DNA of 64,000 bases. Source: Ahrensia sp. Lineage in GTDB: Bacteria > Pseudomonadota > Alphaproteobacteria > Rhizobiales > Rhizobiaceae. The notes beneath the pieces were generated by a model, which saw nothing but the letters and a program-made list of their open reading frames with translations, was not told the origin of the DNA and searched no databases. The stretch spans positions 105,125 through 169,124 of the forward strand of contig PAKZ01000003.1 of assembly GCA_002706335.1 (NCBI GenBank), written 5' to 3'. Positions within the stretch are counted from its first letter, which is position 1, and each line of letters begins with the position of its first letter. Shown piece by piece: positions 24,726 through 27,097 of this stretch. The position numbers and the translations under genes were made by a program.

Positions 24726-24757
24726 AGATTGACAATCTGCATATCAAAATTGGTATG
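24726..24757. promoter_or_regulatory. Two adjacent dyads in the chvE/gbpR divergent intergenic region
   Basis: AGATTG-A-CAATCT (24726-24738) and CATATCAAAATTGGTATG (24740-24757; 14 of 18 positions symmetric). Confidence 0.5.
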
Positions 24758-24763
24758 TGCATC

Positions 24764-25693
24764 ATGCAGAATCTCGCAAACCGACTGCAGTTGCGTGACT
24801 TCCGGCTGGTGCAGGCCATCGCCGATACCGGGCAGTTGGCGCTCGCCGCCGAGCGGCTGGCGGTGACGCAGCCCGCCGCATCGCGACTGCTGGCCCGGTT
24901 GGAAAGCGTGATCGGTGCGCCGCTTTTCATCCGGCATCCCAAGGGGATGACGCCGACGCCCATCGGCGAAACGCTGGCGCGCAACGCGAACAGCCTGCTG
25001 CGCAGCCTCGACCAGACGCTGAACGAGACCGGCGCGGCGGTATCCGGCCGCGCCGGGACGGTCAGGGTAGGGTCGGTGACCGGCGGCGCGGTCGGTTTCG
25101 TGGTTCCAGCCGTCCAGAACCTGAAGAAGATCACGTCCGGCGCCGACATCCATGTCGACGTGGCGCCGAGCGACGTGCTGATCAACGGGTTGCTTCATGG
25201 CGAATACGACTTTGTCCTGTCGCGCATTCCGGCGGGAACCGACCCGCGCCAGTTCTCGGTGAAGCGGGGCCGAGTTGAGGTCATCCGCATCCTGGTCCGC
25301 CGGGACCACCCGCTGACCCGTTTCGGCCCGTTGAAGCCGAAGTATCTGGAAGGATGGGAGTGGGTCATCCAGGCGCCCCACACACCGATGCGCCAGGCGG
25401 TTGAAGAGGTTTTCTACTCGTCTGGAATTTCGCTGCCCTCGGAGATCGTCAACACCACATCCTTGCTGGTGATGATCGGATATCTCGCCTCCACCGACGC
25501 CATCGCGCCGATCACGCGAGAGGTGGCCGATCTCGTTGCCCCCGACGGGTCGGAAGGCCGATTCGTCGCCCTCGATCTCGAGGAGCCGATCATCATCAAC
25601 CCCTATCACCTGATCTCGCTAAAGACCCACACTCTGAGCCCGCTGGCAATCCGGCTGCGCGATCTCATATTCGAAGGGTTCTCGACCTCCTGA
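24764..25693 (+). CDS. gbpR: LysR-type regulator, GbpR-like, divergent from chvE
   Basis: LysR HTH (LVQAIADTGQLALAAERLAVTQPAASRLLARLE); divergent from the chvE-like gene. Confidence 0.8.
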   Translation: MQNLANRLQLRDFRLVQAIADTGQLALAAERLAVTQPAASRLLARLESVIGAPLFIRHPKGMTPTPIGETLARNANSLLRSLDQTLNETGAAVSGRAGTVRVGSVTGGAVGFVVPAVQNLKKITSGADIHVDVAPSDVLINGLLHGEYDFVLSRIPAGTDPRQFSVKRGRVEVIRILVRRDHPLTRFGPLKPKYLEGWEWVIQAPHTPMRQAVEEVFYSSGISLPSEIVNTTSLLVMIGYLASTDAIAPITREVADLVAPDGSEGRFVALDLEEPIIINPYHLISLKTHTLSPLAIRLRDLIFEGFSTS

Positions 25694-25763
25694 CAGGCGT
25701 GACGCGAGCCCAATCTCTCCATGACACGGTTTTGAGCATGTGACGCCCCGCACACGGTTATGG

Positions 25764-25778
25764 TTAATGAACGGCTAA
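25764..25778. promoter_or_regulatory. CtrA-like box TTAA-N7-CTAA upstream of micro-protein gene 1
   Basis: TTAATGAACGGCTAA, one mismatch to TTAA-N7-TTAA; 52 nt between box and ATG. Confidence 0.45.
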
Positions 25779-25830
25779 TCTGTGGACGTGTTCAAAACGG
25801 CCGATGCGGCCATGAACAAGGAGAGACACA

Positions 25831-25983
25831 ATGCAGGCCAAACCATTTTCCCGCCGTGTCATGGCATCGCTGTTCGTCTCGGTCGTCGGCCTCGGGTATT
25901 CCGTCATGGTTGCCGGAGCAGGCGTCGATCTCGTCGCAGAGAGCTTCGCCGGAATTATCGTCGACCTCCTGATCTCTGCATAA
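25831..25983 (+). CDS. 50-aa putative exported/membrane micro-protein, copy 1
   Basis: MQAKPFSRRVMASLFVSVVGLGYSVMVAGAGVDLVAESFAGIIVDLLISA; SD AAGGAGA; paralogous to 26225-26368. Confidence 0.7.
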   Translation: MQAKPFSRRVMASLFVSVVGLGYSVMVAGAGVDLVAESFAGIIVDLLISA

Positions 25984-26157
25984 TTCCGGCCCGACCGTAT
26001 CGCCGGTTCACATTAGTTTCCCGACGGGCTGTCGCCGAGATGGCGAGCAAAGAAAATTGCCCACGGTCTCCGGCGAGGCTTGCCGCTTTCGTTCGAGGGC
26101 GAAACGGCCCGATCCAAACAGTATTTTCGACGTGTGATGGACCGCACATCCTTATGG

Positions 26158-26172
26158 TTAACGGGGGGCTAA
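26158..26172. promoter_or_regulatory. CtrA-like box TTAA-N7-CTAA upstream of micro-protein gene 2
   Basis: TTAACGGGGGGCTAA; identical 52-nt distance to ATG as in copy 1. Confidence 0.45.
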
Positions 26173-26224
26173 TCTCCAAGCATGTTCACGAGGCGCCAAC
26201 GGCGCGGAACCGAGGAGAAAGAAA

Positions 26225-26368
26225 ATGGTCGTCAATCAACTCCCCCGTCTGATCCTGGCAGTCATGTTCCTCTCGCTCGCCGGCATCGGCTATTCCGCAA
26301 AGATGAGCCAGACCAACGTCACGTTCACCGCCGAAGCATTCTCCGGCACGACGTTCGATCTTTCGTAA
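26225..26368 (+). CDS. 47-aa putative exported/membrane micro-protein, copy 2
   Basis: MVVNQLPRLILAVMFLSLAGIGYSAKMSQTNVTFTAEAFSGTTFDLS; SD GAGGAGA; gapless alignment with copy 1 gives 16 identities over 47. Confidence 0.7.
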   Translation: MVVNQLPRLILAVMFLSLAGIGYSAKMSQTNVTFTAEAFSGTTFDLS

Positions 26369-26431: not shown

Positions 26432-27097
26432 TCAAGACCTCTCCAGAAAGGGGCTGAAATGTTCGGGAAAAGCTCGAGCCAGAAAATTCCTGACAAGCCG
26501 TTTCGCGTCATCGCCTGAAAACATGTCCGGGTAAATAAGGATGTTGAGGAAGAATCCGTCATAGAGCGCTTCCAGATTGCGCATAACCGAGTCGGGATCG
26601 ACGGATTCGTATTTTCCCTGTTCGCGGATCGCGCGACACAAACCTACAGAAACCTCCCAGCGCTCGGCATCGATGTCCTTCACCAGTTCGCGATAGGTAT
26701 CGCGATGTGCCGGTTCTCCGAAGAAGCCAAACCATACGGCCAGTTTGCGCGGATTGCATATCTTCGCGTGGAAATGCGCATCTACGATTGCGAGCAGTTT
26801 CTCCGCCGATGACAGGGAGCTATCGGCGAGTTGCGCCTTCCACAAGTCGTGATGTTCCTCTGCAAGGAAGCGCAGCGTCTCGCAAAGCATGTTCTTCTTG
26901 CTCTGGAAATGGAAGTTGGCGATCCCCTGCGACAAGCCCGCGATCCGTGTGACGGTGGACATGGTCGTGCCCGACAGGCCGTATTGAGCTATGGAATCGA
27001 TGGTGGCGTCGATCAGTTGTGCGCGGCGCACTTCAGGCGGGGCGGTTCGTCCGGCGGTTGTCGCGCTGCCTCGCCGTTCGCGCGTTTTCTTGGCCAT
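26432..27097 (-). CDS. TetR family regulator (BetI-like)
   Basis: TetR HTH (LIDATIDSIAQYGLSGTTMSTVTRIAGLSQGIANFHFQSKKNML). Confidence 0.8.
   Translation of the reverse strand: MAKKTRERRGSATTAGRTAPPEVRRAQLIDATIDSIAQYGLSGTTMSTVTRIAGLSQGIANFHFQSKKNMLCETLRFLAEEHHDLWKAQLADSSLSSAEKLLAIVDAHFHAKICNPRKLAVWFGFFGEPAHRDTYRELVKDIDAERWEVSVGLCRAIREQGKYESVDPDSVMRNLEALYDGFFLNILIYPDMFSGDDAKRLVRNFLARAFPEHFSPFLERS

Follow-up and report, generated by a model that had tools for sequence, protein, structure and literature searches.

Genus-restricted microgenes of Oricola with a common dyad promoter and CtrA-like boxes

P1 and P2, two tandem micro-ORFs, are judged by sequence comparison to be real genes and members of a family, restricted to the genus Oricola, of micro-proteins that are 46-50 residues long and predicted to cross the membrane once (or to be exported). 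Within the window, i.e., the whole stretch of 64,000 nucleotides that was analysed, they are preceded by a gene for a LysR-type regulator (24755-25693) and followed by one for a TetR/BetI-type regulator (26432-27097, minus strand):

25831-25983, plus strand: microgene P1, 50 aa, MQAKPFSRRVMASLFVSVVGLGYSVMVAGAGVDLVAESFAGIIVDLLISA, paralog of P2 and P3
26225-26368, plus strand: microgene P2, 47 aa, MVVNQLPRLILAVMFLSLAGIGYSAKMSQTNVTFTAEAFSGTTFDLS, 55% identical to P3 on another contig

On balance we consider it probable that these genus-restricted micro-proteins, membrane-inserted or exported, are switched on by an activator bound to a promoter dyad, timed by CtrA and directed to an envelope partner, and that their history included a relocation and the acquisition of a prophage copy. 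The family alone does not answer a general open question; it offers nonetheless a clean case of genus-restricted small proteins that are less well conserved than key elements of their promoters, with duplication, apparent relocation and a prophage copy all visible across three genomes, and thus a directly testable case of how orphan micro-proteins are retained and brought under regulatory control.

Distribution, constraint and properties of the micro-proteins

Both ORFs were found where a sequence-only reading of the window had placed them, and their alignment without gaps gave the 16 identities over 47 positions that it had counted. Profile searches in six Oricola genomes returned exactly six copies (P1-P6): P1, P2 and P3 in the window genome, the latter on another contig (G000:C39:140516-140656; tblastn and profile searches), P4 in O. 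indica JL-62 (G005), and P5 and P6 in the MAG Oricola sp. HH_bin22 (G004), where P6 stood out only with the profile. P2 is about half identical to the copies in the two other species, while P1 is the chromosomal copy with the most divergence and is devoid of the GTTFD tail. The profile search found no copy in three of the six Oricola genomes, and the family is therefore dispensable. No other convincing member was encountered in family-wide (398), order-wide (398) and class-wide (385) genome samples, IMG/VR and collections of phages and plasmids yielded no relative, and the micro-proteins showed no relation to Pfam, NCBIfam, PHROG, PDB or Rfam entries. Candidate relatives outside Oricola (E 0.001-0.9) were discarded, most of them lying inside long frames of other proteins.

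Frames that were not conserved or lacked protein-level constraint had been named in advance as the result that would count against the genes, and the comparison of the copies gave the opposite. In the gapless alignment of P1-P5 the BLOSUM62 sum was 1044 in frame 0, as compared to 636±98 after column shuffling (0/2000 shuffles); the two alternative frames scored 701 and 622. Constraint was also detected copy by copy (P1, p = 0.013; P2, p = 0.0003; P6, 0/3000 shuffles). A stricter pairwise test of mismatch placement gave p values of 0.005-0.009 for P4/P5 and a marginal 0.07 for P2/P3, and was not significant for the pairs involving P1 (p about 0.35). At the level of sequence, constraint on the protein is evident across the family and weak in P1. 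The proposal that a duplicated gene and its promoter have been maintained together is supported, and holds for a larger set of six copies from three species whose coding constraint is significant.

Every one of the proteins contains a single hydrophobic segment (mean hydropathy 1.9-2.5 across 17 residues), flanked by a net positive N side and by a net acidic C-terminal part forming a short tail, and AlphaFold returned a single helix at residues 6-45 (pLDDT 77). A hydrophobic stretch of about 17 residues with a positive N flank is the mark of small single-pass membrane proteins, and insertion is predicted: the peptide would enter the membrane by its helix with the N terminus in and the C terminus out, and the conserved tail AE.F.GTTFD may act on a partner in the envelope. 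An assignment to the small CtrA-controlled pilins of the Flp/Fap type found no counterpart, as none of the six members carries a Pfam family. By description rather than by sequence, the family resembles the SEPs revealed by Ribo-seq in Sinorhizobium meliloti, likewise unannotated sORFs of Rhizobiales with one predicted transmembrane helix, some of which are narrowly distributed (PMC10117765). Unlike these SEPs, it is confined to one genus, multi-copy and provided with a common composite promoter.

The dyad promoter and the leader

The 5' regions of the two window genes contain the following elements:

25739-25753, plus strand: dyad TGTGACGCCCCGCAC (TGTG-N7-GCAC) before P1, putative activator site, half-sites invariant in six of six copies
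25776-25781, plus strand: -10-like hexamer TAATCT, 22 nt after the P1 dyad, at fixed spacing; presumptive promoter element
25800-25812, plus strand: GC inverted repeat GGCCGATGCGGCC in the P1 leader, directly before the Shine-Dalgarno; folding z = -0.9, not exceptional
25818-25823, plus strand: Shine-Dalgarno of P1, AAGGAG
26133-26147, plus strand: dyad TGTGATGGACCGCAC before P2, putative activator site, half-sites invariant in six of six copies
26170-26175, plus strand: -10-like hexamer TAATCT, 22 nt after the P2 dyad, at fixed spacing; presumptive promoter element
26193-26205, plus strand: GC inverted repeat GCGCCAACGGCGC in the P2 leader; folding z = 0.6, weak
26211-26216, plus strand: Shine-Dalgarno of P2, GAGGAG

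From position -90 the two upstream regions agree at 38 of 54 positions, as had been reported; in 5000 shuffles, the highest match at any of 117 offsets was 30. The promoter claim needs to be shifted to another element, the invariant one being the TGTG-N7-GCAC dyad and not TTAA-N7-CTAA; only the letters CCGCACA of the former had been noticed in the sequence-only reading. In the six-copy alignment TGTG and GCAC stand out as two invariant blocks 7 nt apart, and in all six copies a gap of 22 nt separates the dyad from a hexamer (P1 to P6: TAATCT, TAATCT, TACTCT, TAATCT, TATTCT, CATCTT), with a leader whose length varies from 43 to 49 nt. The P6 hexamer is degenerate and was chosen by alignment, not by pattern match. 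Taking the hexamer as the -10, the dyad is centred at about -41.5, the classical position of class II activators at CRP/FNR and LuxR promoters. The microgene promoters resemble class II activator promoters (CRP/FNR, LuxR/TraR) in that the dyad, so centred, would replace the -35. An activator of CRP/FNR-like or LuxR-like geometry would bind there and recruit RNA polymerase to the TANTCT -10. Across the six Oricola genomes the composite pattern TGTG-N7-GCAC-N22..24-TANTCT matched at each of the five chromosomal microgenes and at a single additional site, with 0 matches in the genomes without microgenes and 0 for the reversed control. The extra match (G004:C18:122232-122274; L093 1501-1543), before a secreted-looking protein, could have arisen by chance and was left out of the regulon.

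CRP sites read TGTGA-N6-TCACA and TraR boxes TGTGC-N6-GCACA, and the half-sites TGTG/GCAC of the microgenes are a mixed fit to the two. Because Oricola genomes hold one to four luxI genes, we considered whether the dyad is a quorum-sensing box of LuxR/TraR type and the micro-proteins are regulated by cell density. The geometry of the dyad does recall that of the TraR box, and luxI genes (over or near the cut-off) number 4, 3 and 3 in the microgene-bearing genomes vs. 2, 1 and 1 in the others, a comparison of six genomes only; nevertheless, a CRP-like reading fits equally well, and the search for a lux box common to microgenes and luxI genes gave no TGTG-N8-CACR dyad upstream of the luxI genes examined. 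We regard density regulation as improbable. The four AHL synthase (luxI, PF00765) genes of the window genome are located on contigs C14, C15, C35 and C43 (L137, L140, L139 and L138, respectively).

Downstream of the promoter, the strong Shine-Dalgarno sequences described for P1 and P2 were recovered, and AGGAGA is kept at the same place in six of six copies. An inverted repeat occupies the corresponding place in the leader of most copies; as a structured RNA element the leader hairpin was rejected, its energies being like those of shuffles and Rfam giving no match. The conserved promoter and the GC inverted repeat could also be expected if the conserved entity were a small regulatory RNA and the ORF incidental, a reading that the strong frame-specific constraint, the Shine-Dalgarno at an unchanged place in all copies, the ordinary folding energies and the lack of an Rfam match render very improbable.

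CtrA-like boxes upstream of the chromosomal copies

Two further elements of the window overlap the presumptive -10 hexamers:

25764-25778, plus strand: CtrA-like box TTAATGAACGGCTAA, overlapping the P1 -10, 7/8 match
26158-26172, plus strand: CtrA-like box TTAACGGGGGGCTAA, overlapping the P2 -10, 7/8 match

TTAA-N7-CTAA ends at -53 in both P1 and P2, as previously stated, and a genome-wide search, which had been proposed as a check, found TTAA-N7-CTAATCT followed by ATG only at these two genes of the 5.1-Mb genome. The identical spacing is real, and the common ancestry of the tandem pair accounts for it. The suggestion of CtrA control fared unevenly: a rare TTAA-N7-YTAR box precedes all five chromosomal copies (in P3 TTAAGCCAATGTTAG, in P4 TTAAGCCAAAATTAG, in P5 TTAAGTGACCATTAA), matching TTAA-N7-TTAA at 7/8 positions in P1-P4 and 8/8 in P5, but the position claimed for it relative to the ATG (-67) is found only in P1 and P2, the boxes of P3-P5 lying at -126 to -139. 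With respect to the start, the box thus keeps no functional position common to the copies and was for that reason rejected as the invariant promoter element. It is absent in P6, which has only a half site (ATGGTTAA; ATGGTTAAC reads as the half motif TTAACCAT on the opposite strand), the half motif being described as a CtrA motif (PMC6180460).

Sites of the form TTAA-N7-YTAR number 47 in the window genome (distinct sites from 68 rows, palindromes being listed twice), and three of them lie no more than 140 nt ahead of the three microgenes, whereas 0.004 would be expected were the sites spread uniformly, or 0.03 were they all intergenic; with the tandem pair counted as one event (two loci), P is about 2e-4 or less. 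The stricter motif TTAAN7TTAAC was not enriched over its reversed control in the window genome (22 vs. 20), and was enriched in several of the other five Oricola genomes. Chemoreceptor-like, PAS-domain and RpoD-like genes of Oricola likewise have CtrA-type sites upstream, and genes of these types are reported as CtrA targets in S. meliloti (PMC3616915). An outer membrane beta-barrel protein gene is preceded by a TTAA-N7-TTAA site (G000:C17:53177; L122 1501-1516) that has close likes in G001, G004 and G005 and is possibly a conserved CtrA target.

The boxes may also be accidental, CTAA being just a part of the -10, the microgenes standing outside the CtrA regulon and the dyad activator acting as sole regulator. 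The CTAA half of the P1/P2 box is indeed part of the hexamer TAATCT, which is kept in copies without the TTAA half there; TTAA at the P1/P2 spacing is absent in P3, P4, P5 and P6, and the stricter motif is no more frequent than its control in the window genome. On the other side stand the presence of a box within 140 nt in five of five chromosomal copies, against a genome total of 47, and the perfect TTAA-N7-TTAA of P5 amid sequence otherwise diverged from P4. Accidental boxes are accordingly a serious possibility, if short of probable, and CtrA control of the microgenes is plausible but unproven on the motif counts.

If CtrA does bind, it would add cell-cycle timing through TTAA-N7-YTAR. In Caulobacter CtrA activates from full sites near -35 and represses from half sites over -10 (PMC4287350); following this position rule, the P1/P2 boxes, whose right half lies over the -10, would repress. 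In P3-P5 the box would begin about 80-90 nt upstream of the predicted start, and in P1/P2 it would cover the -10. Compared with CtrA regulon promoters (PMC4287350, PMC3616915), the microgenes share a TTAA-N7-TTAA-type box, in P1/P2 with its right half in the Caulobacter repressing position, and differ in the single mismatch of four of the five boxes, the varying position and the additional invariant dyad at -41.5.

Genomic sites and the prophage copy

P3, P4 and P5 all have a DUF2461-type and a TfoX_N-type gene as neighbours (domain scan at the P3 locus), and since this site is common to the three copies, it is most likely the ancestral chromosomal locus. The LysR site is free of microgenes in the relatives, where another gene directly follows LysR in O. 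indica and an unrelated gene does so in the MAG, with synteny too poor to define the exact junction. P1 and P2 share one promoter variant with each other. From the microgene-free site of the relatives and the common variant, the pair is therefore most simply read as a copy that would have moved from the DUF2461/TfoX_N locus to the side of the window LysR gene, and then been duplicated in tandem. Near P1/P2 (27451-30789) the window also encodes a 1112-aa product with transglutaminase-like and DUF2126 putative amidoligase domains, with no link shown to the microgenes.

P6 (G004:C21:29661-29798; L081 1501-1641) directly follows a major head protein gene and is followed by other phage genes. Its surroundings are a prophage, because genes for terminase, portal, tail sheath and tape measure proteins lie on the same contig; this further microgene copy thus rides in a prophage. 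P6 is divergent and carries the same TGTG-N7-GCAC dyad and Shine-Dalgarno. Standing alone among phage structural genes with its own predicted promoter, it is the only copy with the traits of a phage moron, P1-P5 not being within phage gene clusters in the stretches examined. An integrase gene lies near P3 (L022 12-1262), and together with an apparent tRNA 3' end (L022 about 1350-1410), where ARAGORN called no tRNA, it suggests an integrated element next to the ancestral locus.

These settings invite the view that the microgenes are selfish or moron-like, i.e., type I toxin-like or phage-borne small hydrophobic peptides spread by mobile elements: P6 sits between capsid and other phage genes, P3 adjoins the integrase gene, and the copies are dispersed as well as tandem, with small and hydrophobic products. 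They nonetheless match no Pfam, NCBIfam or PHROG family, have no relative in IMG/VR, phage or plasmid records, and possess a conserved polar tail unlike typical type I toxins. Neither a toxin family nor a known antisense RNA family (Rfam) was matched; an undescribed antisense RNA partner is possible. We hold the selfish reading to be rather unlikely. A bolder account, in which a cell-cycle-gated exported or membrane micro-protein family is passed between chromosome and prophage in Oricola while keeping its own activator-dyad promoter, the phage copy mimicking a host envelope regulator, appears decidedly unlikely.

CtrA-controlled genes are known in alphaproteobacterial phages in connection with lytic deferment (PMC9437464). 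P6 differs from these in having neither a CtrA site cluster nor a full box, and resembles them in being a prophage gene preceded by a ATGGTTAAC (TTAACCAT) half site.
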